In this document: one piece after another, positions 3,293 to 60,800 of the stretch | Layout of the letters: each line of letters starts with the position of its first letter | How positions within the stretch are numbered: position 1 is the first letter of the stretch | The notes under the pieces: model-generated | What the model was told of the DNA's origin: nothing | Seen by the model: the letters and a program-made list of their open reading frames with translations, nothing else | Databases searched by the model: none | Position numbers and translations under genes: made by a program | From: Frigoribacterium sp. PhB160 | GTDB lineage: Bacteria > Actinomycetota > Actinomycetes > Actinomycetales > Microbacteriaceae | NCBI RefSeq assembly: GCF_003751785.1 | Contig: NZ_RKIE01000002.1 | Coordinates: 434,001 to 498,000, forward strand | DNA: 64,000 nucleotides | Reading direction: 5' to 3'

Positions 3293-4672
3293 ATGAGACA
3301 GCTGCTCTTCACCCTCCGCACGGCGGTCTCCTCACCGACCCGGAACGCGCGCACCGCGACGGTGCTCGGCCGGCTGCTCGGCGCCCTCTTCGTCGTCTGC
3401 CTGCTGACCGGCCTCTACAGCCACTTCCTCCAGGAGCCCGCCGCCTGGATGCGCTTCCCGACCCGGCCGACCTGGCTCTACCAGGTGTCGCAGGGCGTCC
3501 ACATCACGGCGGGCATCGCCTGCATCCCCCTGCTGCTCGGCAAGCTGTGGGCCGTCTTCCCCCAGCTCTTCCAGTACCCGTTGGTGCGGCACCCCGTCCA
3601 GCTGCTGGAGCGCGCCTCCATCGCCCTCTTCGTCGCGTCGTCGCTGCTGCAGCTCGTCACGGGACTGCTCAACACGTACCAGTGGTACCCCTGGCCCTTC
3701 CCGTTCAAGCAGGTGCACTTCGCGCTGTCGTTCGTCATCATCGGCTCGCTCGCGGTGCACATCGCCGTCAAGCTGCCGCTCATCACGCGGTACTGGCGAG
3801 CGCGCGACAGCTACGACGAGCGCGGCGTGTTCGTCGAGCCCGACGGCGCGCTCGACCCCGCGCGGGCCGAGCACACGGCGACGCGTGAGCTCGCCGCCCT
3901 CCGGGGCCGGCAGGAGGCGCGGGTCGCGTCCCGACGACGCCCCGCCCCTGAGGCGCCCGCCCCCGCGCCCGCTGCCCGGGCCTCGACGCCGGCCCCGGGC
4001 CTCCGCGGCCTCGTCGGCCGGGTCGCCCGGTGGATCGACACGGCCCGCGAGGGCGACGGCGAGCCCGCCCGGGTGCGCGTCTCGCGTCGCGGCTTCTTCG
4101 GCGCGATCGGCGTCGCGACCGGCGGCGTCGTCGCGCTCACCGCGGGGCAGTCGTTCGCCGTGCTCTCGCCGCTCAACGCCTTCGGCCCGCGACAGGCGGG
4201 CCTCGGCCCGAACGACCTCCCGATCAACCGCACGGCCGCCGCGGCGAAGGTGCTCGAGACCGCGATGGACCCCGACTGGCAGCTGACGGTGTCGAACGGC
4301 TCGCGGTCGCGGGCGTTCACCGCGGCCGACCTCGAGGGGATGACGCAGGGCGACGAGCGCCTCCCCATCTCGTGCGTCGAGGGGTGGAGCCAGACCGCGT
4401 CGTGGCGCGGCGTGCGGCTCGTCGACCTCATGGCGCTCGTCGGGGCGCCGGCGGACGCCCGCCTGAAGATGACGAGCCTCGAAGAGCGAGGAGGCTACCG
4501 CGTGATGCTCATGGGCCCCGAGTACGCCACCGACCCCGCGACGCTCGTCGCGCTCGAGCTGAACGGCGAACGGCTCGACATCGAGCACGGGTACCCGGCG
4601 CGGATCATCGCGCCCGGGCGGCCCGGGGTGCTGCAGACGAAGTGGCTGAGCACGATCGAGGTCGTCCGATGA
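3293..4672 (+). CDS. Membrane molybdopterin-dependent oxidoreductase (sulfite-oxidase fold) with four-helix cytochrome b-like N-terminus
   Basis: A 459-residue polytopic molybdoenzyme. Residues about 22-160 contain four hydrophobic helices with histidines (YSHF, GVHITAG, QVHFALSF, AVHIAVK) that could bind heme b. A charged, Ala/Pro-rich cytoplasmic linker follows (about 165-255). A fifth helix is preceded by an internal twin-arginine motif SRRGFF (about residue 265). The C-terminal domain is of the sulfite-oxidase molybdopterin type, with ISCVEGWSQ providing the likely Mo-ligating Cys and ARIIAPGRPG near the end. Five-helix proteins with an internal Tat signal are a known actinobacterial family using both Sec and Tat. 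The substrate is unknown. Molybdenum uptake and cofactor genes flank it. Confidence 0.88.
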   Translation: MRQLLFTLRTAVSSPTRNARTATVLGRLLGALFVVCLLTGLYSHFLQEPAAWMRFPTRPTWLYQVSQGVHITAGIACIPLLLGKLWAVFPQLFQYPLVRHPVQLLERASIALFVASSLLQLVTGLLNTYQWYPWPFPFKQVHFALSFVIIGSLAVHIAVKLPLITRYWRARDSYDERGVFVEPDGALDPARAEHTATRELAALRGRQEARVASRRRPAPEAPAPAPAARASTPAPGLRGLVGRVARWIDTAREGDGEPARVRVSRRGFFGAIGVATGGVVALTAGQSFAVLSPLNAFGPRQAGLGPNDLPINRTAAAAKVLETAMDPDWQLTVSNGSRSRAFTAADLEGMTQGDERLPISCVEGWSQTASWRGVRLVDLMALVGAPADARLKMTSLEERGGYRVMLMGPEYATDPATLVALELNGERLDIEHGYPARIIAPGRPGVLQTKWLSTIEVVR

Positions 4673-5142
4673 CCGCCCCCGGCGTGCCCGCCTCGACGGG
4701 CCGCGGCGTCCGCGTCGCGCGCGCCGTGCTGGTCGTCGTCGGCGTGCTGCTCATCGCGCTCGGCGGCTACGTGCTGACCCAGACGGTGCGTCCGAACCGC
4801 TACGGAGGACTCCTCGTCTGGCTGATCGGCTCGGTGATCGTGCACGACGCGATCCTCGCCCCGCTCGTGGCCGGCGTCTCGCTCGTCGTCCGCCGTGCAG
4901 GGCGCCGCGTCCGGCCGGCCGTGCTCGCGATCGTGCAGACCGCCGTCGTCGTGGGGGCGATCCTGTCGATCGTCGTCGTGCCCGAGATCATCGCGAAGGC
5001 CCGCGGCACCAAGAACGACACCGTGCTGCCCTTCGACTACGGCGCGCGCCTCGGCGTCATGTGGCTCGTGATCGCCGTGCTCACGGCGCTCGTCGCGACG
5101 GCCTGGGTCGTGCTCGCCCGCCGCCGCGAGGCCCGGCGCTAG
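4669..5142 (+). CDS. Small integral membrane protein, partner of the molybdoenzyme
   Basis: A 157-residue protein with four predicted helices (about 15-38, 45-70, 80-105, 130-152), beginning VARAVLVVVGVLLIALGGYVL and carrying VWLIGSVIVHDAILAPLV. I do not recognise a named family. The ATG at 4669 overlaps the molybdoenzyme stop (ATGA), so the two are almost certainly co-translated and this may be a membrane subunit or an assembly factor. The His-Asp in VHDAIL sits inside a helix and is worth noting. A long upstream in-frame extension is only a shadow of the molybdoenzyme gene. Confidence 0.8.
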   Translation: MTAPGVPASTGRGVRVARAVLVVVGVLLIALGGYVLTQTVRPNRYGGLLVWLIGSVIVHDAILAPLVAGVSLVVRRAGRRVRPAVLAIVQTAVVVGAILSIVVVPEIIAKARGTKNDTVLPFDYGARLGVMWLVIAVLTALVATAWVVLARRREARR

Positions 5143-5223
5143 GACGCGACTCGGCGCGGTCCGCCGCCAGACGGCCCCCCGCGCGCGGCGAGCGAGGCCC
5201 ACCGCGTGCGGCGAGGCCCGCCG

Positions 5224-5970
5224 CTAGCCGCGGACGATGCGACAGAAGGTGCGCTCGCCGACCGACCAGGTCTGCGAGACGCGCAGGCCCGCGGTCGCGG
5301 CGTGCCGGCCGAGCGCCTCGCGCCCGACCTCGGCCCACGGGAAGGTCGCGCTGGCGCGGCCCTGCTCGTCGACGACCTGGGCGTCGTAGACGACGTCCGT
5401 CTCGGCGTCGGGGGCCGTCTCGACGACGACCGAGCCCGAGCGGGCCACGACGGCGGAGGCGCGGGCCACCAGGGCTCCCGGGTCGCCCCCGATGCCGATG
5501 TTGCCGTCGAGCAGGAGGGCGACGTCCCACGTCCCCTCGCCGGGCACCGCGTCGAAGACCGAGCCGGCGACGACGGGCAGGCCCGCGTCGGCGGCCATGG
5601 CGACCGCCGTCGTCGAGACGTCGACCCCGAGGGCGTCGAGGCCGCGCTCGACCGAGGCGCGGACCATGCGGGCAGGGCCGCAGCCGATGTCGAGCACCGA
5701 GGTCGCGCCGAGGATCGTGCTGAGGTCGGCGGCGTCGGCGCCGCGGCTCCACCGGGCCACGTCGAAGGCGTCGGCGGCGGGCGTGGCGAGGGCGGGGGCG
5801 GCCGGGCCGGCGAGGAGGGCGCCGCCGTGGGCACCCCGCGAGGGGGCGGCCGGGCGGGCGCTGCCCGGTGAGCGGACGAGCTGGAGTCGTCCCTCACGGC
5901 GGAGGGCGCGGGCGTAGGGCTCCGCGCCTCCGGAACCGAAGGTGGGCTGGGGGTCGGTCGCGATGGTCAC
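5224..5970 (-). CDS. Class I SAM-dependent methyltransferase
   Basis: A 248-residue Rossmann-type methyltransferase. Motif I VLDIGCGPARM is at about residues 92-102 and the acidic ribose-binding motif LGVDVS at about 115-120; AADAGLPVVAGSVFD and WDVALLLDGNIGIGGD follow as motifs III-IV. The first 60 residues are less conserved in look and may form a cap. Its GTG start overlaps the stop of the DUF2064 gene upstream (GTGA), placing it last in the operon GT2-DUF2064-methyltransferase. The acceptor is unknown; the neighbours suggest a sugar or lipid-linked glycan. The molybdoenzyme pair converges on it with an 81-nt gap. Confidence 0.85.
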   Translation of the reverse strand: MTIATDPQPTFGSGGAEPYARALRREGRLQLVRSPGSARPAAPSRGAHGGALLAGPAAPALATPAADAFDVARWSRGADAADLSTILGATSVLDIGCGPARMVRASVERGLDALGVDVSTTAVAMAADAGLPVVAGSVFDAVPGEGTWDVALLLDGNIGIGGDPGALVARASAVVARSGSVVVETAPDAETDVVYDAQVVDEQGRASATFPWAEVGREALGRHAATAGLRVSQTWSVGERTFCRIVRG

Positions 5971-6638
5971 GAGCGGGCCTCCTCTGTCGTGGTGCGGGTT
6001 CGGGGCGCGTCGCCCGAGGACTCGGGATCGACCCGGCGCAGCGTCGCCGCGAACGACGAGCCGGGGGCGGCCGCGGCGGCGAGGCGGGCGTCGTCGATGG
6101 TGTCGACGTCGACGAGCTCGGGGAGGCGGCCGACGCGGAGGCCGGCGGAGGCGAGGCGGGCGAGCTGGTGGGCGCCCGTGTCGTCCTGCGACATCGGCAC
6201 GCCGCGCAGCAGGTCTCCGGTCGGCCGGGCGAGCGCGAGCGCCCACCAGCCGCCGTCGTTGGCCGGGCCGAACCAGGCGTCGACGTCGTCGGTCCACGCG
6301 TCGAAGACGGGGGCGACGTCGGCGACGGTCAGCTGCGGGGTGTCCATGCCGACGAGCAGCGTCGGGCCCTCGACCTCGTCGAAGAGGGCTCCGAGCCGGG
6401 CGTCGAGGCCGCCGCCGATCTGGGTGATCACATCGAAGTCTTCGGAGCCGGGCGGTGTTCGGTTGCCGTCGAAGAGCAGCACCCGGCGCGTCGCCGGCAG
6501 GGCGCGCACGACGGCGAGGGTGTCCTGCACGGCTGCGGCGGCCACCTCGGCGGCCTGCTCGAGGCTGAGCGGCGGGTGCAGGCGGGTCTTGACCTTGCCG
6601 GGCAGGGTCTCCTTCGCGATCACGACGACGGTCGTCAT
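5967..6638 (-). CDS. DUF2064 / TIGR04282-type nucleotide-sugar transferase-like protein
   Basis: A 223-residue GT-A-fold protein. The start TTVVVIAKETLPGKVKTRL matches the N-terminal nucleotide-binding loop of the TIGR04282/DUF2064 family, with GGGLDARLGALFDEV and LVGMDTPQLTVADV (the Asp likely metal-binding) and WFGPANDGGWWALAL further on. Family members are annotated as rSAM/selenodomain-associated or cofactor guanylyltransferase-like proteins; the reaction is not established. It overlaps the GT2 gene upstream (ATGA) and the methyltransferase downstream (GTGA), so the three are one tightly coupled transcription unit. Confidence 0.85.
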   Translation of the reverse strand: MTTVVVIAKETLPGKVKTRLHPPLSLEQAAEVAAAAVQDTLAVVRALPATRRVLLFDGNRTPPGSEDFDVITQIGGGLDARLGALFDEVEGPTLLVGMDTPQLTVADVAPVFDAWTDDVDAWFGPANDGGWWALALARPTGDLLRGVPMSQDDTGAHQLARLASAGLRVGRLPELVDVDTIDDARLAAAAAPGSSFAATLRRVDPESSGDAPRTRTTTEEARS

Positions 6639-7303
6639 CGGCCGGCCTCCCGCAGCAGGCGCGACATGTCCTGGATCGCCCGGCGGGTGCCGCGGATCGT
6701 GCCGGTCACCTTGCTGCGGCCGACGCGCGGGGCGTACGGCGCGTCGAGCTCGCGGATGCGCCAGCCCGCCTCCGACGCCCGCAGCACCATCTCGAGGGGG
6801 TAGCCGCTGCGGCGGTCGCGGAGGTCGAGGCCGAGCAGGCCCTCGCGGCTGGCGACCCGCATCGGGCCGAGGTCGTGGAGGCGCACGCCGGAGGCGCGGC
6901 GCATGAGGTGCGCGAGGGCCACGTTCGCGAGGCGCGCGTGCAGGGGCCAGGCACCGCGGGTCGTCGGGCGGCGACGGCCCAGCACGAGCTCGGCGTCGCC
7001 GCGGAGCACCGGCTCGGCGAGGGCGACGAGGTCGGCGGGGTCCATCGACGCGTCGGCGTCGCAGAAGGCGACCCACGGGGCGGTCGCCGCCTCGAGGCCG
7101 GCGTGGGCGGCCGCGCCGAAGCCGCGACGCGCCTCCGTGACGACGAGGGCGCCGTGCTCGGCGGCGACGCGGGCCGAGGCGTCGGTCGACCCGTTGTCGA
7201 CGACGATGGCCCGCCAGCCCTCGGGCAGGCGTCCCAGCACCCAGGGGAGGGCGCCCTCCTCGTCCAGGCACGGGAGCACCACGTCGACCAGTGCTGTGCT
7301 CAT
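6635..7303 (-). CDS. GT2 family glycosyltransferase (dolichyl-phosphate mannosyltransferase-like)
   Basis: A 222-residue cytoplasmic GT-A enzyme without a membrane tail. Typical motifs: VVLPCLDEEGALPWVL (nucleotide-binding start), VVDNGSTDASARVA, and the metal-binding FCDADASMDPADL at about residues 80-95. The C-terminal part DRRSGYPLEMVLRA and GTIRGTRRAIQDM resembles polyprenol-phosphate glycosyltransferases. The product may be a lipid-linked sugar used by a GT-C enzyme such as the GT87-like protein nearby; that link is inference. A TACGGT -10 box ends 6 nt before the ATG, so this gene starts its own operon. Confidence 0.85.
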   Translation of the reverse strand: MSTALVDVVLPCLDEEGALPWVLGRLPEGWRAIVVDNGSTDASARVAAEHGALVVTEARRGFGAAAHAGLEAATAPWVAFCDADASMDPADLVALAEPVLRGDAELVLGRRRPTTRGAWPLHARLANVALAHLMRRASGVRLHDLGPMRVASREGLLGLDLRDRRSGYPLEMVLRASEAGWRIRELDAPYAPRVGRSKVTGTIRGTRRAIQDMSRLLREAGR

Positions 7304-7309
7304 GGGACG

Positions 7310-7315
7310 ACCGTA
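7310..7315 (-). promoter_or_regulatory. -10 box for the GT2-DUF2064-methyltransferase operon
   Basis: TACGGT on the minus strand is 6 nt upstream of the ATG at 7303, which predicts a leaderless transcript for this operon. Confidence 0.45.
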
Positions 7316-7356
7316 CTGACGCCGTCCTGGGAACGACCGCCGCCGCCCCGGACTGG

Positions 7357-7414
7357 GGTCGGGCCCCTCGCGGGACGGCCAGGCGGGGTCGGGCGCGGTC
7401 GGGCCCCTCGCGGG
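7357..7414. repeat. Direct repeat pair, 18 bp, in a GC-rich spacer
   Basis: The 18-mer GGTCGGGCCCCTCGCGGG occurs at 7357-7374 and again at 7397-7414, a 40-bp period, inside the 171-bp gap between the GT2 and epimerase genes. The block is almost pure G/C. No gene is seen here; the repeat could be a slippage product or a protein site. Confidence 0.6.
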
Positions 7415-7474
7415 CCGGCTGGGGCGGGCGCGGTCGGGCGCGAGCGTGCCCCGGTCGACGGCGCCCGCTCGTCG

Positions 7475-8557
7475 CTAGCTCGTCACGGCCGCCCGGAGCG
7501 GGGCCGTCGCGAACTCGCGCATGCCCTCCTCGAAGCTCATGCTCGGCTCCCAGCGCAGCTCGGTGCGGAGCCGCTCCGACGAGGCGGTGACGTGGCGCAC
7601 GTCGCCGGCGCGGTACTCGCCGGTGACGACGGGCTCGGGTCCGCCGGCCTCGCGGGCCAGCGCCTCCGCCATCTCGCCGATGGTGTGCACCGTGCCGCTG
7701 CCGACGTTGAAGGCGCGGGACGTGTCGGGCGGCTGCTCCGCCGTCCAGTCGAGGGCGGCGAGGTTGGCCGCGGCCACGTCGCGCACGTGCACGAAGTCGC
7801 GGCGCTGGGCGCCGTCCTCGTAGACGCGGGGGGCCTCGCCGCGCTGCAGCGCCGAGCGGAACAGCGAGGCGACGCCGGCGTAGGGCGTGTTCTGCGGCAT
7901 GCCCGGCCCGTAGACGTTGTGGTAGCGGAGCGCCGCCGCCCGGCCGCCCGTGCTGCGCGCCCACGACGTCGCGAGATGCTCCTGCGTCAGCTTGGTGATG
8001 GCGTAGACGTTGCGCGGGTCGAGGGGCGCCTCCTCCGAGATGAGCTGCGGCTCGAGCAGCTCGCCGGCGGCGTCGCGAGGGTCGAAGACGCCCGCGTCGA
8101 GGTCGGCGATGCGGCGCGGTGCGGGCCGCTCGGTCTCGCCGGTGCTCGTGCGGTAGCTGCCCTCGCCGTAGACGACCATCGACGAGGCGACGACGAGTCG
8201 GTCGACGCCGGCGCGGTCCATCGCGGCGAGCAGCACGGCCGTGCCGTGCTCGTTGCTGTCGACGTAGTCGGGGGCGTCCTGGAAGTCGACGCCGAGGCCG
8301 ACCTTCGCCGCCTGGTGGCAGACCGCGTCGACCCCGGCGAGTGCCGCGTCGACGACGGCGGCGTCGCGGACGTCGCCCCGGACGAAGTCGACCCGGGGGT
8401 CGACGTCGGGCTCTCCGCCGTGCACGTCGGCGCGCAGAGAGTCGAGCACCCGCACCCGCCAGCCGGCCTCGAGGGCGCCGGCCACGATGGCCGAGCCGAT
8501 GAACCCGGCGCCGCCCGTGACGAGCAGCAGCCCGCGGTCGCCCGTCCCGCCGCTCAT
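7475..8557 (-). CDS. NAD-dependent sugar epimerase/dehydratase (extended SDR)
   Basis: A 360-residue extended short-chain dehydrogenase. The NAD-binding motif VTGGAGFIGSAIV is at about residues 12-25, the SSMVVYGEG serine segment near 130, and the catalytic YxxxK as YAITK near 205; RDFVHVRDVAAANLAAL and FNVGSGTVHTIGEM are the C-terminal substrate-side motifs. Family knowledge points to NDP-sugar 4-epimerase or reductase activity; the sugar is unknown. The ATG overlaps the mtnP stop by 4 nt, so it is read through from the mtnP promoter. It lies directly upstream of the GT2 operon and may supply its nucleotide sugar. Confidence 0.88.
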   Translation of the reverse strand: MSGGTGDRGLLLVTGGAGFIGSAIVAGALEAGWRVRVLDSLRADVHGGEPDVDPRVDFVRGDVRDAAVVDAALAGVDAVCHQAAKVGLGVDFQDAPDYVDSNEHGTAVLLAAMDRAGVDRLVVASSMVVYGEGSYRTSTGETERPAPRRIADLDAGVFDPRDAAGELLEPQLISEEAPLDPRNVYAITKLTQEHLATSWARSTGGRAAALRYHNVYGPGMPQNTPYAGVASLFRSALQRGEAPRVYEDGAQRRDFVHVRDVAAANLAALDWTAEQPPDTSRAFNVGSGTVHTIGEMAEALAREAGGPEPVVTGEYRAGDVRHVTASSERLRTELRWEPSMSFEEGMREFATAPLRAAVTS

Positions 8558-9459
8558 GCGCCCACCCCGCGCACCGGCCGCGCCAGCACCTCGGCGACGG
8601 CCGCGGCCGGGATCAGCTCGCGCGGCTCGTAGTCGTGGGGCAGCCCGGCGACGATCGACTCGATGGCCGCGACGATGCGGGGCTGGGCCGCGGCGAGGCG
8701 CTCCATGACGAGCTGGTGGCTGACCGCGTCGTCGTCGGTGCCCTCCTCCGGCGAGATGCCCGCGTCGCTGTCGGTGACGAACGAGATGTTGACGGCGCCC
8801 ATGCCGAGCTCGAGGGTGAGCGGCACCTCCGGGTACATCGTCATGTTGATCGTGTGCGCCCCAGCGGCGCGGAACCAGAGCGACTCGGCGCGGGTCGAGA
8901 ACCGCGGCCCCTGGATCACGACGCACGTGCCGGTCGGCGCGAAGGGCTCGCCCTGCGCCTCGAGCGCGGCGACCGCCGCCGCGCGCAGCGTCGGGTCGAA
9001 CGGGTCGGCGGCGACGAGGTGCTGCACCGAGCCCGGCTCGTCGTAGAAGGTGTCGACGCGGCCCCAGGTGCGGTCGATGAACTGGTCGGTGACGACCATC
9101 GTGCCCGGCGGGTACTCCGGGCTGACGCCGCCGACGGCCGACGACGAGACGACGGCCCTCGCGCCCAGCGACGCGAGCGCCCAGACGTTCGCGCGGAAGT
9201 CGATGCGGTGCGGCGGCACCGAGTGGCCCTTGCCGTGCCGGGTGAGGAACGCGACGGTCTTGCCGCCCATCTCGCCGACGGTCACCTCGCTCGAGGTGGG
9301 GCCGTAAGGCGTCTCGACGACGTGGCTCGTCGCCGTGCCCGGGGCGAAGAGCGAGTAGAGGCCCGAGCCGCCGATGACGGCGACGTCGACGCGGGGCAGG
9401 CCCCCGTCGACGGGGGCGGAGGACGAGGAGGCGCGCTGCGGGAGATCGGTGTCGGTCAC
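8554..9459 (-). CDS. mtnP: S-methyl-5'-thioadenosine phosphorylase
   Basis: A 301-residue purine-nucleoside-phosphorylase-fold enzyme that cleaves methylthioadenosine (a polyamine/SAM by-product) to adenine and methylthioribose 1-phosphate in methionine salvage. Family motifs: VIGGSGLYSLF, FLTRHGKGHSVPPHRI, VVSSSAVGGVSPEY, GPRFSTRAES and NMTMYPEVPLTLELG, then VTDSDAGI. A methylthioinosine-type substrate cannot be excluded. The GTG at 9459 follows a TAGCGT -10 box by 7 nt. The gene is divergent from moeA and the two -10 boxes overlap. Confidence 0.9.
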   Translation of the reverse strand: MTDTDLPQRASSSSAPVDGGLPRVDVAVIGGSGLYSLFAPGTATSHVVETPYGPTSSEVTVGEMGGKTVAFLTRHGKGHSVPPHRIDFRANVWALASLGARAVVSSSAVGGVSPEYPPGTMVVTDQFIDRTWGRVDTFYDEPGSVQHLVAADPFDPTLRAAAVAALEAQGEPFAPTGTCVVIQGPRFSTRAESLWFRAAGAHTINMTMYPEVPLTLELGMGAVNISFVTDSDAGISPEEGTDDDAVSHQLVMERLAAAQPRIVAAIESIVAGLPHDYEPRELIPAAAVAEVLARPVRGVGA

Positions 9460-33448: not shown

Positions 33449-35002
33449 GTGCCCAGAATCCTGATCGTCGGCGGCGGCTACGCCGGTTTCTACACCGCCT
33501 GGAAGCTCGAGAAGTGGCTGCGCGCGGGCGAGGCCGAGGTCACCGTGGTGGACCCGCTGCCCTACATGACGTACCAGCCCTTCCTCCCCGAGGTCGCCGC
33601 GGGGTCGATCGAGCCGCGTCACGCCGTCGTCTCGCTCCGTCGCCACCTCAAGAAGACGACCGTCGTCACGGCCGCCGTCACCAAGGTCGACCACGCGACG
33701 AAGACCGCGACCATCACGCCCGCCGTCGGCGACGCCTGGACGATGGAGTACGACCAGGTCGTCATGACCGCCGGCGCCGTCTCGCGCACCTTCCCGATCC
33801 CCGGCGTAGCCGACGAGGCCATCGGCCTCAAGACCATCGAGGAGGCCGCGGCGATCCGCGACAAGCTCCTCACGAACTTCGCCGCGGCCGCGAACCTGCC
33901 CGCGGGCCCGCAGCGCGACCGCCTGCTGACCGTCACGGTCGTCGGCGGCGGCTTCGCCGGCATCGAGATCTTCGCCGAGCTGCGCAGCTTCGCCAGCGAC
34001 CTGCTCAAGAAGTACCCGACTCTGACGATCGACGACACGCACTTCCACCTCGTCGAGGCGATGGGCCGCATCATGCCCGAGGTGTCGCTCGAGACCAGCC
34101 ACTGGGTGCTGAAGAACCTGGCCGAGCGCCAGGCGACCGTCCACCTCGACACGCAGCTCAAGTCCGCCGTGGGCGGTCTCATCGAGCTGTCGACGGGCGA
34201 GTCGTTCGAGTCCGACCTCATCGTCTGGACGGCCGGCGTCATGGCCAACCCCATGGTCCGCTCGACCGACTTCCCCCTCGAGGAGCGCGGCCGGATCACC
34301 GTCCGTCCCGACCTGCGCATCGTCGACGGCGAGACCGTCGTCCCCGACGCCTGGGCCTGCGGCGACGTCGCAGCCACTCCCGACCTCACCGGCAAGGGCG
34401 TCGGCGGCATGTGCGTCCCGAACGCGCAGCACGCCGTGCGCATGGGCAAGCAGCTCGCCAAGAACATCACCGCGTCGCTGCGCGGCGAGAGCACGACCGA
34501 CTACAAGCACGAGAACCTCGGCGCCGTCGCGGGCCTCGGCATCGGCACCGGCGTCTTCCAGAGCGGCAAGATCGTGCTCAAGGGCTTCCCGGCCTGGGCC
34601 GCCCACCGTGGCTACCACGGCATGGCGATGCCGTCGTTCGAGCGCAAGTTCCGGGTCGTCACCGGCTGGTGGAACAACATGTGGCTCGGTCGCGACATCG
34701 TCTCGCTCGACGACCGCGAGAAGCCCCGTGCGGCCTTCGAGAAGTTCGCGTCGCGCCCCAAGCCGCCCGTCGCCGAGGCTGCACCGGCTGCAGCCCCCGC
34801 GCCCGAGATCGGCCAGCCCGCCGGCGAGCCGGGACCGGCCTACGCGAACCCCGTCGACGACGAGGGCGCGAAGGCCGAGGGCGACGCGGCCTCGAAGCCC
34901 GCTCGCAAGGCCCCTGCGCGCAAGCGCGCGACGACGACGAAGGCCCAGGAGGCGCCCGTCGACGAGAAGGCCCCCGCCGCCGACAAGGCGACCGCCGAGT
35001 AA
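33449..35002 (+). CDS. NDH-2-type NAD(P)H dehydrogenase with Lys/Ala-rich tail
   Basis: A 517-residue FAD enzyme. FAD-binding motif ILIVGGGYAGFYTAWKLE (about residues 4-21), second Rossmann motif VTVVGGGFAGIEIFAELR (about 155-172), and DAWACGDVAATPDLTGKG with CVPNAQHAVRMGKQLAKNI as in type II NADH dehydrogenases. The part about 385-430 (GFPAWAAHRGYHG, RVVTGWWNNMWLGRD) would form the membrane-binding end. A tail of about 75 residues rich in Ala, Pro and Lys (KPARKAPARKRATTTKAQ) is unusual for the family. It feeds electrons to menaquinone without pumping protons. Ribosome site AAGGAGA upstream. Confidence 0.92.
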   Translation: MPRILIVGGGYAGFYTAWKLEKWLRAGEAEVTVVDPLPYMTYQPFLPEVAAGSIEPRHAVVSLRRHLKKTTVVTAAVTKVDHATKTATITPAVGDAWTMEYDQVVMTAGAVSRTFPIPGVADEAIGLKTIEEAAAIRDKLLTNFAAAANLPAGPQRDRLLTVTVVGGGFAGIEIFAELRSFASDLLKKYPTLTIDDTHFHLVEAMGRIMPEVSLETSHWVLKNLAERQATVHLDTQLKSAVGGLIELSTGESFESDLIVWTAGVMANPMVRSTDFPLEERGRITVRPDLRIVDGETVVPDAWACGDVAATPDLTGKGVGGMCVPNAQHAVRMGKQLAKNITASLRGESTTDYKHENLGAVAGLGIGTGVFQSGKIVLKGFPAWAAHRGYHGMAMPSFERKFRVVTGWWNNMWLGRDIVSLDDREKPRAAFEKFASRPKPPVAEAAPAAAPAPEIGQPAGEPGPAYANPVDDEGAKAEGDAASKPARKAPARKRATTTKAQEAPVDEKAPAADKATAE

Positions 35003-35016
35003 CGTCCCGACCCCAC

Positions 35017-35061
35017 CACGACGACGCCCGTCCGCTGCCTCAGCGGGCGGGCGTCGTCGTG
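35017..35061 (+). terminator. Long hairpin after the NDH-2 gene
   Basis: A 21-bp stem with one G-T pair (35017-35037 with 35041-35061) around loop CCT, 14 nt after the stop. It separates the gene from the tRNA downstream. Confidence 0.8.
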
Positions 35062-35081
35062 CGCCGAGGGGGCGCTTCTCG

Positions 35082-35087
35082 TAGGCT
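35082..35087 (+). promoter_or_regulatory. -10 box of the tRNA at 35097
   Basis: TAGGCT lies 9 nt before the tRNA 5' end, at a usual distance for tRNA promoters. Confidence 0.4.
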
Positions 35088-35096
35088 GACCGGGGC

Positions 35097-35171
35097 GCCC
35101 CCGTGGCCCAAATGGATAGAGGCAAGCGACTTAAAATCGCTGAGATCAGGGTTCGAGTCCCTGCGGGGGCA
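35097..35171 (+). tRNA. tRNA-Leu (anticodon UAA) with short variable loop
   Basis: Acceptor arms GCCCCCG and CGGGGGC pair perfectly; D-stem GCC/GGC; anticodon stem AGCGA/TCGCT with loop CTTAAAA, giving anticodon UAA (Leu, codon UUA); T-arm CAGGG-TTCGAGT-CCCTG; discriminator A at 35171. The variable loop is only GAGAT (5 nt), whereas bacterial tRNA-Leu usually has a long arm. The gene is a good cloverleaf, but its amino-acid identity is assigned by the anticodon only. A repeat array starts right at its 3' end. Confidence 0.85.
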
Positions 35172-35504
35172 CTCCGGACGCCAGGGCACTCCGGACGCCA
35201 GGGCACTCCGGACGCCAGGGCGTCCTCCGGCCCCCACAGGGACTCGAACCCGAGCGGCTCGACGATGCTTCGCCTCGTCCCCATGCGGGGGCACTCCGGA
35301 CGCCACAGGGCGTCCTCCGGCCCCCACAGGGACTCGAACCCGAGCGGCCCGAGGATGCTTCGCCTCGTCCCCGTGCGGGGGCACTCCGGACGCCAGGGCA
35401 CTCCGGACGCCAGGGCACTCCGGACGCCAGGGCGTCCTCCGGCCCCCACAGGGACTCGAACCCGAGCGGCCCGACGATGCTTCGCCTCGTCCCCGTGCGG
35501 GGGC
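35165..35504. repeat. Three tandem units (122, 90, 122 bp) carrying antisense tRNA-like sequence
   Basis: Units run 35165-35286, 35287-35376 and 35377-35498, ending in a partial new start (to 35504). Each begins with GGGGGCACTCCGGACGCC, a copy of the 3' end and flank of the tRNA. Units 1 and 3 then carry two further 17-nt copies of AGGGCACTCCGGACGCC. All three continue with the inverted partner GGCGTCC, a segment equal to the reverse complement of a tRNA T-arm and acceptor (CCCCCACAGGGACTCGAACC), and a small hairpin region around GATGCTTCGCCTCGTC. On the minus strand each unit can be drawn as a degenerate tRNA. This fills the 365-nt gap before the next gene; no protein is supported. Confidence 0.85.
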
Positions 35505-35536
35505 ACGGCGGCACGACAGTCGTCAGCGAGGCAGGG

Positions 35537-37834
35537 CTAGGCGTCGTCGCGGGCCGGCTCCACGACCCGCACCCACAGCCACGCCGCCACGGCGGCGAGT
35601 GCCCCCACCAGGCACGCGGCGAGCAGCGTCGGCAGCGGGAAGGCCGAGGCCGGGTCGCCGATGAACACGACCGCCGCGACCGTGACGCCCACGACGGCGA
35701 CCCCGACCAGCGTGACGGGAGACCAGCCCCACACGCGCCGGCCGGGCAGGGGCCCGACCGGCAGCAGCGCGACGACGAGCGAGCCGAGCCCCGCGAGGCA
35801 CACCGTGGCGAGCGTCTCTCGGCCGAGCTGCGCCCAGAAGCCCGAGCCCGCGACGAGCCCGTGCACGATCCAGGCGGCGAACGGCAGGGCGATGAGCGCG
35901 GCGAGCTGAGCCAGGGCGGCGATGCCCTGCTCGCGGGCGGCAGGCTCGTCCGTCGGTCGCGCCAGATCAGCGGTCGAGTGCGACGGGTGGCGTGCGTCGG
36001 CGTCGGTCGTCGCGGCGACCGTGAGCGTGCCCACGAGCAGGGCCCCGAGCACCAGCGGAGGATCGAGCGAGAGGAGGCGCGTGGCCGTGCACGCGACGAC
36101 GGCCGCCAGCAGCAGCCCCGGCGACACGCGCACCCGCACGGCGCGGCCGAGGCGCTTCGCGACGAGCACGGTCGGCAGGACGACCGCGAGGCCGTTGAGG
36201 AGGATGAGCCCGAGGGCGATGCCCGCGAACAGCCGGGCGTACTGCACCTGGTCGTCGACGCCGGCGGCGAGGGCGGTGACGGCCGCGCCCGCGACGATCG
36301 TGGCGCCCACGGCCACGCGGAGGTCGATCGTGCCGCCGCTGAAGGAGGTCGGCAGCTCGACCCCGCGGTTCCGACCGGTGATCACGGCGCCGGGCGACCG
36401 ACGCCCGCGGCCCCGGACGGCACCAGCGGCGAGGCGCGCCGGTCCCACGACGAGCGCGACGAAGGCCAGGCCGACGAGCGCCGCCAGCGGCCAGGACGGG
36501 CCGCCCAGGGTCTGCGAGAGCGTCGGCAGGTCACGACCGAAGGTCGTGGCCGTGGCCCAGCCGCCCTCGGTCCCGCCGCCGGTGGACGGGACGCCTCCCG
36601 CGCCTCCTGCCCCGTGGTCGCCCCCGTCGTCGGAGGGGGCGCCGGGCACGCCCGGAGCGGCGGTGGCGCTCGGGCCGGGCTCGACGGGCGCGGTGGGCCC
36701 GGGGGTCGGTCGCGGAGGCGGCGTGGCGGACGGGGACCGGGTCGGCGAGGGCGTCGGGCCCGACACGGGAGGCGCGGCGGACGCGGTCGCTCCGCCCACG
36801 GTCACCGAGAAGGCCGCCGACGGCGGGCCGAAGTTGCCCGCCGCGTCGACGAGGGACGCCTGCACGACGCGACTGCCGGTCGGGAAGGTCGAGCCCTCCG
36901 AGCGGCACGACCACCGACCGGAGACGACGGTGGACTGGCAGACGGGGGAGCTGTCGACGTAGACCGTGGCTCGGGCGCCCTCGTCGCCGGTCCCTGCGAA
37001 CGTGACGGGCTGGGTCGTGACCCGCTGACCGGGCGAGGGGCTGACGACGACCGGTGCCGCCGGGGCGGCCCGGTCGATCTGCACCGAGACCCGGGCCGAG
37101 GCGGCCGACGTGGGGACGGCGGGCACCGCGCTCGACGACTGGCTGGCCGTCATGGTCGGGCTGCCCGTGGGGAAGGCGTCGGCCGGGAGGACGGCGACCC
37201 AGGAGCCGTCGGCGGCGGCGGTCGTGGTCGCCCGGGCGCCGGCGGAGCTCGTGACGGTCACCGTCGCGCCGGGGAAGGCGGTGCCGGTGAGCTTCGCCCC
37301 GACGAGGAGGCCGCCGTCGACGGTCGGCGGCGCGAGCACGGAGAAGGCGGATGAGGAGACGTCGGCGAGGTCGGGGTGGTCGAGGTCGCGCACGACGGCC
37401 GTCCAGTCGGCACCGCTCGGGACGGCGGCCCGGCAGCTCCACCGCCCGTCGACGCCCGTGACGACGCCGTCGCAGAGGGCGCGGTAGCTGCCGTCGCCGG
37501 TGAGGGCGACCTTGACCCGGGCGCCGGGCTGCGCGGTGCCCCCGACGCTGACCGTGCCGGTGGCGCTGTCGGCGACACGGGCGACGGTCGGCTCGGCGAC
37601 GGTCGGGTCGGGCGTGGGGGAGGGGGCGCCGAGGGCGGGCGACGGCGTGGGCGTCGGCGCGCCCGCGGCGGAGGCGGCGAGGGCGCCGCCGGAGGCCGCG
37701 AGGACGAGGGCGAGCACGACCGCGGCGACGGCGTGGGCCGATCGGCGTGCCGTCACGGCGCGCCGACCCGCGCGACCGGCGGCGGAGGCCGAGGACCGCG
37801 ACGGGGGCAGGGTCAGGAGATCGAGCACTGTCAC
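35537..37834 (-). CDS. Exported Ig-like repeat protein with C-terminal multi-pass membrane domain
   Basis: A 765-residue protein. An N-terminal signal or anchor helix (about residues 32-55) is followed by Pro/Thr linkers and three Ig-like or carboxypeptidase-regulatory-like beta domains (about 75-350), with phrases such as GTVSVGGTAQPGARVKVAL, LTGTAFPGATVTVTSSAG and VTFAGTGDEGARATVYV. A long Pro/Ser/Gly-rich linker leads to about eight membrane helices (about 440-760). I know no named function; the shape suggests a surface sensor or adhesion protein. The GTG at 37834 is the first possible start; one within the next 30 codons is also possible. Confidence 0.75.
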   Translation of the reverse strand: MTVLDLLTLPPSRSSASAAGRAGRRAVTARRSAHAVAAVVLALVLAASGGALAASAAGAPTPTPSPALGAPSPTPDPTVAEPTVARVADSATGTVSVGGTAQPGARVKVALTGDGSYRALCDGVVTGVDGRWSCRAAVPSGADWTAVVRDLDHPDLADVSSSAFSVLAPPTVDGGLLVGAKLTGTAFPGATVTVTSSAGARATTTAAADGSWVAVLPADAFPTGSPTMTASQSSSAVPAVPTSAASARVSVQIDRAAPAAPVVVSPSPGQRVTTQPVTFAGTGDEGARATVYVDSSPVCQSTVVSGRWSCRSEGSTFPTGSRVVQASLVDAAGNFGPPSAAFSVTVGGATASAAPPVSGPTPSPTRSPSATPPPRPTPGPTAPVEPGPSATAAPGVPGAPSDDGGDHGAGGAGGVPSTGGGTEGGWATATTFGRDLPTLSQTLGGPSWPLAALVGLAFVALVVGPARLAAGAVRGRGRRSPGAVITGRNRGVELPTSFSGGTIDLRVAVGATIVAGAAVTALAAGVDDQVQYARLFAGIALGLILLNGLAVVLPTVLVAKRLGRAVRVRVSPGLLLAAVVACTATRLLSLDPPLVLGALLVGTLTVAATTDADARHPSHSTADLARPTDEPAAREQGIAALAQLAALIALPFAAWIVHGLVAGSGFWAQLGRETLATVCLAGLGSLVVALLPVGPLPGRRVWGWSPVTLVGVAVVGVTVAAVVFIGDPASAFPLPTLLAACLVGALAAVAAWLWVRVVEPARDDA

Positions 37835-57882: not shown

Positions 57883-60800
57883 TCAGTCGTCCGTCGGGAC
57901 GAGCGCGACCGCTCGCCGACGCAGGACGCCCATGACCCCGAGGGTGAGGAGGGCGGCGGCGAGCACTCCGAGCCCGGCGACCCCGGCGCCGGTGAAGGCG
58001 AGACGGCGGGGCGTCGCCACGGTGCCAGCGCCAGCGACGTCGCTGCTGGGGCCGGTGCCGGTGCCGGTGCCGGCATCGCCGGGGGTGGGCGGTGCGGGAG
58101 TCGACCCGTCGCCCGGCTCGCCGGGGCCGTCCGGATCGGGGAGGGCACCTGCGTCGACGTGGTCGTCGCGGTCGACGTCGACGGTCTCGCCGGCATCGCC
58201 CGTCACGCGCTCGAGCACGACGCTCGCCGTGCCGGTCTCGTCGACGTCGGAGTCGAGGGCGTCGTCGTCACCGACGTGGCTGACGGTCCACCCGCCCGGC
58301 ACGGTGCCGAACGCGACGTCGTAGCTGCCGGGGCGGAGTCCGGTGAACGAGTAGCTGCCCTCGGCGTCGGTCTCGGTCGACCGGGAGACGGGCTCGCCAC
58401 GGTCGTCGGTGCCCGAGAGCTGCACGGGGTGTGCGGGGCGACCGGGCTCGTCGGTGCCCTGCAGGCCGTCGCCGTCGAGGTCCGTCCACACCGTGTGGCC
58501 GACCGAACCCGCCACGGCGCGACTGGTCACGACCTCGGACGAGGCCGTCAGGTCGATGCCGGCGACGCGGATCGCGAAGCGTGACGCCCACACGTCGCCG
58601 TCGGACTGACCGTCTCCGCCGACGAGGACGAGGTCGTGCTCGACCTCGCCCCCGCTCGGGACGGCGACGTTGCGGTCGACGCGCACCGCGGTCACGGCCG
58701 CGAGGTCACGCGGGCAGCCCGGCGCGCCGAACTCGGCCTCGGTGCACCAGCGGGTGCGGCCTCCGGGAGCGTTGGAGGCGTCGGCCGGGTCGTGGGAGAC
58801 GCTCGCGGACTCGGCCGACGTGTACAGCACCGTCTCCGACCCGTCCGCGACCACCGGTGCGTCGAGCCTCGGGCGCGCAGCGGTCGTCGTGCCGGCGGCG
58901 TCGCCGTCGAAGGGCAGCACCGAGATGAGGGACGTCGACTCGAGGGCCTCGGACCCGACGTTGCCGTAGGTGAGCGTCAGGACGACGCGGTCGCCGACCA
59001 CGTGGACGGGGGCGTCGACCCGTTCGCGGGCGTCGAAGCCGCTGCCGGCGAGCACGCGCAGGGCCCGGTGCGTCGTCCGGTTCACCTCGGCGGAGACGTC
59101 GCGGCTCGACTCGATCGTCGCCGTGTTGATCGCCTCGGCCCCCACGACGGCGCGGACGAACCGGGCGTCGAAGGTGAGGGGAGGGAGGTCGTCGTTGACG
59201 TCGACGCGCTCGAGTGACCAGGTGAGGCGCTGGCGGGTGACGCCGTCGACCTCGACCTCGTCGATCGTGGGCGTGAGCGAGCCCGAGCCGTCGACGTAGG
59301 CCGCCCCGGCCGGCAGCACGTCGCGGACGACGACCGTCTCGGGGAGTTCGTCGTCGGAGGCGTTCGTGACGGAGGGGTAGAGCGCGTACCGGATGGTGCC
59401 GCCCGCCGTGACGAAGCTGGTCTCGTCCGGGGTGTCGTGGGCGTCGTGGCCCGGGTCGACCACGGCGCTCCGGATGCGGGCGGTGTTGCTCGTGACCGTC
59501 AGGAAGTCGGACCAGGCGCTGTTGGCGCTGTGCGCGTCGCCCGGGGTGTGGACCCACTCGCCGTCGGGGGCCGTGCGGAGGCTGGCGAAGGTGCGCATGC
59601 GCGTGTAGTTCTCGAGCCGGGACGAGGCGGTCAGGTGGACGTGGAACCCGAGGGAGACGGTGGCGGGGTGGTCGTAGGTCCAACGGACGGCGCCGACGGC
59701 GGACGGCCCGCCCTCGACCTGCCGGGGGTCCTCGGACCAGGCGAGGTCGTCGTCCTCACAGGTCTGCTCCTTCGCCCGCTCGGGGTCGGAGCCGTCGAAC
59801 GCGGCGAACTGCGGGCGGCCGGTCGTGCCGGGGCGGTTGGACGCCGCCCACGAGCCGGGGCTGCTCTCCCGCAGCCGCTGCACGGAGTTGTCGAAGACGC
59901 TGCACACGACGGTGCCGGTCCAGTCGGCGGTGCCGCGGTTGTTCAGCGTCGTGGTGGCGAGCAGGGTCTGCCCGGGCGTGACGTAGGGCTCGTCGTTCTT
60001 GCCGGAGAGGGGGAACGACGACCGCGACGCGGTGTCCCACCCGGCGTAGCTCTGCGAGCCGGTGACGCCCGGCTTGTCGCTGATGTTGCGGTCGGCGACG
60101 TTGTTGGCGAGGGGCTCGCCCTCGCCGTCGTAGTTCGCCCGCCCGCTGACCGACGTGGCGTCGAGGTCGCGGTAGACGTTGCGGGCCGTGAACGACGTGC
60201 TCTCGGGAGGCTGCGGGACCCACAGGCTGACGTAGCCCGAGACCACGTACGGCTCGACGCCGCCGGGGATCGGGCCCCCGGAGACGTTCTTGGTCGGCGT
60301 CGACGCCATGCTCGTGTCGGTGCCGCGGATCTGGACGGTCACCGGTTCGCCCGGGGCGCTCTGCTCGCAGGTCACGGTGCCGGTGTCGACGACGGCGCGC
60401 TCGCCGCCGCCGCTGCCGCCCGGGGCGGTGGGCATCTGACCGGTGTTGACGCCGCACGCCGGAGCTCCGTCGACGGGCAGCAGCACCGCCGGGCTGTCTT
60501 CTCGGCCGTACATCCGCGAGACGTCGTCGACGAAGCTGATGCCGTCGCGCAGGCGCTCGTAGCCGAGCAGCCCGCCGTCCTCGGCCAGTGACTCGAAGTG
60601 CATGAGGATCGGGTAGACGATGCGGAAGCCCGGGCTCGTGCCGTCGGGTCCCACGGCCGCGCTGAAGACGGGCAGCACCCGGTTCATCGAGAGGTCGAAG
60701 CGAGGAGCGGCCGAGACCGTCACGGCGGGCACGACGGCCTCGACGGGGCCGACGCCCTCGGCGTCGGCGGTCACGGCCGGGCGGAGGAGGGTGCCGTGGG

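Follow-up and report, generated by a model that had tools for sequence, protein, structure and literature searches.

Tandem repeats carrying inverted and direct copies of a tRNA tail behind tRNA genes of Frigoribacterium, tentatively read as RtT-like trailer modules

When the DNA behind the tRNA-Leu(UAA) gene of the window (the whole 64,000-nucleotide stretch of Frigoribacterium DNA analyzed here) was examined for direct repeats, spacings of 90 and 122 were found, which gave the boundaries of three tandem units of 122, 90, and 122 bp at 35172-35505, 3' of the gene, and confirmed the unit sizes proposed in an earlier note on this DNA. The units are RtT-like by their anatomy, and they are not members of the RtT family by homology. 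Our preferred, and still tentative, reading is that the array consists of RtT-type tRNA trailer modules of the sense strand, amplified in tandem. The interpretation given in the earlier note, which had left the sense strand out of consideration, was partly supported.

The parent tRNA-Leu(UAA) gene lies at 35097-35171 on the plus strand, does not encode CCA, and scored 56.3 bits with the tRNA model RF00005; ARAGORN placed its end at 35172. On the strand of the tRNA, each unit runs from a hairpin-forming 3' flank through an inverted copy of the tRNA T-arm and acceptor 3' strand, a short motif (GGCCCG in units 2 and 3, GGCTCG in unit 1), and a core hairpin to a closing direct copy of the tRNA tail. 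Unit 1 (122 bp, 35172-35293), unit 2 (90 bp, 35294-35383), and unit 3 (122 bp, 35384-35505), all on the plus strand, were delimited by sequence and repeat search and matched the covariance model R1 (see below) at 35228-35294 (83.1 bits), 35318-35384 (82.2 bits), and 35440-35506 (86.4 bits), respectively. The inverted-repeat search showed that the tRNA segment GGGTTCGAGTCCCTGCGGGGGC recurs three times in inverted form, each time as a 22-nt copy with 95% complementarity, on the minus strand at 35230-35251 (unit 1), 35320-35341 (unit 2), and 35442-35463 (unit 3), so that the T-arm and acceptor previously described on the opposite strand of every unit were recovered. A retroviral-type primer-binding site was considered as an idea for the inverted copy and rejected, since the inverted copies of the window units lack the complement of CCA and of A73.

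The core hairpins, located by sequence and folding, are at 35261-35279 in unit 1 (GACGATGCTTCGCCTCGTC, a covarying helix), 35351-35369 in unit 2, and 35473-35491 in unit 3. As had been noticed before, the GACG of units 1 and 3 is replaced by GAGG in unit 2, whose hairpin pairs in a shifted register. The closing direct copy in each unit equals the last ten bases of tRNA-Leu(UAA) and is on the plus strand at 35284-35293 (TGCGGGGGCA, unit 1), 35374-35383 (unit 2), and 35496-35505 (unit 3). The 17-nt repeat CACTCCGGACGCCAGGG, which comprises the tRNA end and 3' flank, occurs three times on the plus strand at 35170-35220, and a similar stretch opens unit 3; inspection of the sequence thus agreed with the earlier description of this repeat as a feature of units 1 and 3, and unit 2 is without it.

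To follow the unit beyond the window, R1 was built from an alignment of 14 units and run on 16 genomes of the genus, with up to 150 first-look candidates scored per genome. The search gave 39 matches at E<=0.01 in 11 of the 16 genomes, and five further matches (E>=0.35) were treated as chance and not used. Extraction yielded 40 usable hits, and 39 units remained after removal of a partial hit that adjoined an N run. All 39 matches were behind tRNA-Leu(UAA), tRNA-Arg(CCU), or tRNA-Arg(ACG) and none was away from a tRNA 3' end, i.e. in these genomes the units are not dispersed through extragenic DNA and occupy three kinds of tRNA locus only, with one to four units per locus. Their orientation was identical in all 39 cases (3' of the tRNA, on its strand). 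ARAGORN called a tRNA at 32 of the 37 scanned unit loci (L047-L083), and the five loci lacking a call abut either an N run (L055 and L064) or a tRNA 3' half (L079, L080, and L082). The units measured 66-122 bp, and no gene was found inside any of them. In the window's own genome (G000), a DNA search revealed a single unit behind tRNA-Arg(CCU) and a pair of units behind a 3' half of tRNA-Arg(ACG), two loci in addition to the array. The proposal of a tRNA-derived repeat residing at tRNA genes was thus borne out both in this genome and in relatives, where expanded, decayed, and empty sites were all present. An assembly artefact was rejected given the presence of units in 11 of the 16 assemblies. 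As far as the search sees, the repeats are tied to tRNA 3' ends within the genus and are not a local accident.

In a wider search, 299 genomes drawn from the family were examined with stricter filters, at most 17 candidates being scored per genome, and gave four matches, all from Frigoribacterium. An exact, narrow core pattern run over the 84,980 species genomes of genome_contigs matched two Frigoribacterium records and one further place (L104), which has no tRNA and was rejected as chance; this pattern is blind to the short-hairpin class, and the scan may have lacked records close to the window's genome.

We compared each unit with the tail sequences of tRNA-Leu(UAA), tRNA-Arg(CCU), and tRNA-Arg(ACG), in a test that is coarse since the two arginine tails differ by one base. 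The direct tail matched its own tRNA strictly best in 34 of the 39 units, with four ties and one worse match. For the inverted arm the corresponding figures were 32, three, and four, and the four units that were worse on their own tRNA are copies of one array. A core motif was common to units of different tRNA loci, and GGGTTCG was invariant in all 34 distinct units. Core identity was 0.66 (0.80 in the long class) between units of the same genome at different tRNAs, 0.64 (0.77) between different genomes at different tRNAs, and 0.66 (0.85) between different genomes at the same tRNA. By these identities, transfer between loci inside one genome left no clear signal, which counts against recent jumping.

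The whole array folded with a z-score of -4.7 on the plus strand and -5.4 on the minus strand. The flanks of tRNA-Leu(UAA) in relatives without units at this gene served as controls (eight of the 12 such genomes were used) and gave values from +0.4 to -3.0. Because the array exceeded these eight control flanks and the unit recurs in the genus as described above, we regard it as more than chance. On the sense strand a single window unit (z -1.3 to -2.0) folded only mildly better than shuffled sequences; folding was better on the minus strand. In the sense-strand folds of all three Frigoribacterium units folded, the inverted tail paired with the direct tail and thereby closed the module; in the long-class alignment (minus strand) this stem had 85.7% paired cells.

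Among 21 distinct long-class units, the core hairpin showed two-sided compensatory changes at five of its eight pairs. The stem between the inverted and direct tails showed such changes at two of seven acceptor pairs and at pair 10-66; arms copied from different tRNAs would be expected to covary in any case, so these changes are no proof of selection. The score for covariation was above that of all 500 of 500 shuffles, a result that cannot be read as a probability given the kinship among the sequences, and the number of further pair types was not above the shuffles (269 and 293 of 500 reached the observed value).

Much of the evidence for trailer modules would also be expected from quasi-neutral amplification of a hairpin. 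The array could be a selfish or neutral repeat with no function, formed by tandem duplication of the tRNA tail and flank, in which template switching at the T-arm palindrome would have produced the inverted tail and quasi-palindrome correction would keep it tRNA-like. This is a serious rival, which we consider possible yet rather unlikely. It agrees with the patchy presence of the units in the genus, where tRNA-Arg(CCU), inspected by eye, is followed by decayed remnants in two genomes (G003 and G007) and by nothing in three (G001, G006, and G010). It also agrees with the turnover of copy number between one and four units per locus, with the nested 17-nt slippage repeats seen in the window and the comparable slip in G009, and with the mixing of short and long hairpin classes inside single arrays (G015, G014, and G008). 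However, the core hairpin is not derived from the tRNA and keeps its pairing through changes on both sides, the GGGTTCG motif does not vary, and the same anatomy recurs in E. coli, all of which speaks against this rival.

The earlier note had read each unit on the minus strand as a small degenerate tRNA. This description is too strong, as beyond the acceptor and T-arm a unit has one long hairpin and neither a D-arm nor an anticodon arm. On this idea, the units would be minus-strand tRNA mimics without a D-arm, made up of an acceptor, one long arm, and a T-arm, and an antisense transcript would serve as a decoy or a substrate for tRNA enzymes. The better folding of the minus strand is in keeping with this, and the units can adopt a T-arm fold in which CGG/CCG closes a middle arm; this fold is the minimum free energy (MFE) structure for one distinct sequence (L088:6856, the same as L089:6346). 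The mascRNA model gave 18.3-18.7 bits, which is below its threshold of 42.5. Against it, ARAGORN and RF00005 recognized only the parent tRNA in the array stretch and none of the units. The acceptor pair 9-67 was unpaired in nine and the T-stem pair 51-65 in 14 of the 21 long-class units, so that a 7-bp acceptor and a 5-bp T-stem are not kept in the units (the fifth T-stem pair being uncounted). In the window units the T-arm fold was 4.5-6.8 kcal/mol worse than the best fold. No sigma-70-like promoter was found in 34900-35700, in a search that covered this promoter type. The helices that discriminate between the two alternative minus-strand folds, tRNA-like and three-way junction, hardly vary. 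Since the T-arm fold is costly, its pairs are broken, and the tRNA models are silent, we did not accept the minus-strand mimic and regard it as very improbable. A convergent tRNA gene pair was likewise rejected, as ARAGORN found no minus-strand tRNA at the array.

The closest parallel for a sense-strand reading comes from E. coli. According to passages of PMC4986893, RtT repeats are known from E. coli and related bacteria as tRNA operon by-products with an unclear role, and the transcripts of these operons release RtT RNAs; an effect of these RNAs on the stringent response is credited there to Bosl and Kersten 1991. The tyrT/tyrV region of E. coli K-12 contains 178-bp repeats and the small RNA RttR, and the end of rttR as annotated in RefSeq (1287066-1287236) is the CCA of a tail copy. 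We examined 22 tRNA genes of K-12, taken from tyrT/tyrV and five other tRNA regions. An exact copy of the gene's own last 16 nt, distinct from the next tRNA, was found behind 10 of them (lysT, lysW, lysY, lysZ, lysQ, argQ, argZ, argV, tyrT, and tyrV), and in nine of these 10 modules, lysQ being the exception, an inverted segment of the own tail lay upstream and paired with the tail copy in the MFE fold. A 17-nt inverted T-arm with up to four mismatches was present behind the two tyr genes only. The family model RF00391 matched four tyr and five lys modules of K-12, with 133-138 bits on the tyr modules, and had no match on the arg modules.

RtT repeats and the Frigoribacterium units are thus alike in standing behind a tRNA gene on the tRNA's strand and in consisting of an inverted segment complementary to the own tail, hairpins, and a direct copy of the own tail; RtT copies also occur in tandem behind tyrV, as the units do in Frigoribacterium. 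The two features 'direct own tail closes the module' and 'stem between inverted and direct tail' were drawn up here from the K-12 modules. The two systems share no sequence or model similarity, however. The inverted copy comprises the whole T-arm and acceptor in Frigoribacterium, whereas it is mostly shorter in E. coli; the modules measure 90-122 bp in the window and 98-178 in the E. coli modules that were folded; and CCA is not encoded in the window's tRNA, unlike in the RtT system. In 34900-35700 of the window there was no match to RF00391 even at E<=1 (family threshold 45 bits), and common descent with RtT is therefore not supported. Nor did any Rfam family match the units in the window stretch.

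If the units are trailer modules, they would be transcribed together with the tRNA on the sense strand. In each module, (a) a segment with complementarity to the 3' part of the parent tRNA is followed by (b) at least one hairpin and (c) a direct copy of the tRNA 3' tail. A duplicate of the T-stem 3' strand within one transcript could compete with the real strand during folding of the tRNA; we infer that (a) pairs with (c), which would lock the duplicated tail in a local stem and keep it from competing with the real tail. Processing of the tRNA would then remove the modules as by-products. The array may grow through unequal exchange or slippage involving its direct tail copies, and both arms may be kept similar to the local tRNA through conversion with the tRNA gene as donor. 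No T-run intrinsic terminator was found in 34900-35700. A role as an insulator against a convergent gene was also considered; as judged by a rough GC3 gene caller, the next gene had mixed orientation.

Direct copies of a tRNA tail are also the expected trace of integration into tRNA genes. The units could accordingly be micro-integrative elements or piled-up attachment sites, with tRNA-tail ends that would be moved in trans by tRNA-specific tyrosine recombinases and with tail copies that would act as attR or decoy sites. Islands do make use of these tRNA genes, and two loci bear on this second serious rival. In the window's genome (C1, about 206 kb to 269.6 kb), 63 kb separate an intact tRNA-Arg(ACG) from a tRNA-Arg(ACG) 3' half, which is followed at the far end by two units (L085 16589); a Phage_integrase gene is situated about 2 kb from the intact tRNA (L160 1624-5068) and 63 kb from the two units, and the stretch is probably an integrated island. 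In G012 (L084 ~3700-9060), a 5.5-kb insert at tRNA-Arg(CCU) has units on both sides: the tRNA and two units on one, a tRNA 3' half and one unit on the other. At the far junction of this insert, however, the identity to the tRNA starts in the anticodon loop, which the unit tails lack. Two proteins of the insert were run against Pfam, and neither was an integrase; the integrase survey of array flanks comprised ten proteins. The units are further set apart from the attL/attR sites of tRNA-targeting integrative elements, with which they share direct copies of the tRNA 3' end, also at a far end, by the lack of cargo and recombinase, by the inverted copy of the tail, and by the conservation of the core. 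At 66-122 bp and with no gene inside, they are too short for an integrase, and such lengths are very short for circular excision. The E. coli modules, moreover, sit inside operons. We consider attachment sites an improbable explanation of the units.

REP-like elements moved by a RAYT had also been proposed in the earlier note. The Y1 transposase family PF01797 was found in none of the 16 genomes of the genus, whereas the control matched in five of 14, and a REP/RAYT element was rejected on this basis. REP/BIME and REPIN sequences resemble the units as short palindromic extragenic repeats, but the units occur only at tRNA 3' ends and in genomes that lack this transposase family. A statement in PMC2965389 assigns rtT-like elements to the BIMEs and describes BIMEs as able to act as bidirectional terminators. 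A phage or plasmid origin was rejected, as there was no blastn match at 1e-5 and the core pattern had no exact match in viral contigs.

To see how far the layout extends, the pattern 'T-arm, 25-55 nt, inverted T-arm' was searched in 199 genomes of the family and gave matches in G000, G189, and G161. The match in G161, a tRNA-Ser beside a T-arm-like stretch, was set aside as probably chance. In G189, which belongs to another genus, tRNA-Leu(CAA) is followed by two degenerate units with an inverted T-arm, a different large hairpin, and direct tails. Among 396 genomes of the phylum 15 matched, including G000, and ARAGORN found a tRNA in the first loci of 13 of the other 14 (L135 being the exception). 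From 20 further stretches 19 were read, 13 of which had a tRNA call and six of which had none (L140, L144, L148, L149, L151, and L152). At 22 scored tRNA loci the inverted T-arm, the presence of which was set by the search pattern, started 15-43 nt past the tRNA, or 15-38 nt without L125, a tRNA-Ser(GGA) locus that only just passes the cut and is probably chance. A direct tail copy was present within 420 nt at 11 of the 22 loci, some contigs being too short to tell. The own T-arm was strictly the best match at 10 loci, tied at eight, and worse at four, in a comparison where many tRNAs share T-arms. Six modules were folded (G377, G410, G646, G637, G506, and G189), and the MFE structure was closed by the arms in G377 and G506 only.

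These other Actinobacteria (G377, G410, G600, G637, G646, G189, and others) thus have the inverted T-arm and hairpin-rich core of the Frigoribacterium units, and the direct tail at half of the scored loci, but differ from them in the core, which is often GGGGGG-rich, and in an inverted copy that is mainly T-arm. The likeness is one of layout, and in structure it was only partly shown. GGGGGG-rich structured elements of about 100-200 bp were observed at L141, L142, L147, L150, and L153-L157 (G377, G637, G410, and G646), behind several different tRNA genes and in more than one actinobacterial family. When L141, L142, L147, L153, and L157 were run against Rfam at gathering thresholds, only tRNA was matched.

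One could go further and regard all of these as micro-mobile elements of tRNA 3' ends spread across bacteria, in which a portable hairpin core, on reaching a new tRNA gene, would acquire an inverted and a direct local tail as its arms; three core families would then be represented by RtT in E. coli, by the units in Frigoribacterium, and by the GGGGGG-rich modules in other Actinobacteria. We think this unlikely. As far as our limited literature search goes, the build in Actinobacteria and the rule of a mirrored own tail seem new: no title or abstract start in it described this anatomy, which may be known elsewhere, as subscription papers were mostly outside its coverage. The same anatomy with an unrelated core and locally matched arms in another phylum makes for a searchable rule (a mirrored own tail, hairpins, and a straight own tail), which can be looked for in any genome and is testable by genetics. 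It is of relevance to the folding and maturation of tRNA precursors, to what makes tRNA 3' ends such hot spots of change, and to how a repeat keeps its ends equal to a host gene.

Two minor observations were made elsewhere in the window. ARAGORN called a tRNA-Ala(GGC) at 58037-58132, inside a repetitive GC-rich stretch, and this call is probably a false positive. Between the ORF at 33449-35002 and the leucine tRNA gene there is a 21-bp inverted repeat (35017-35061, 95% complementary, with a 3-nt loop), which may be the terminator of that upstream ORF.
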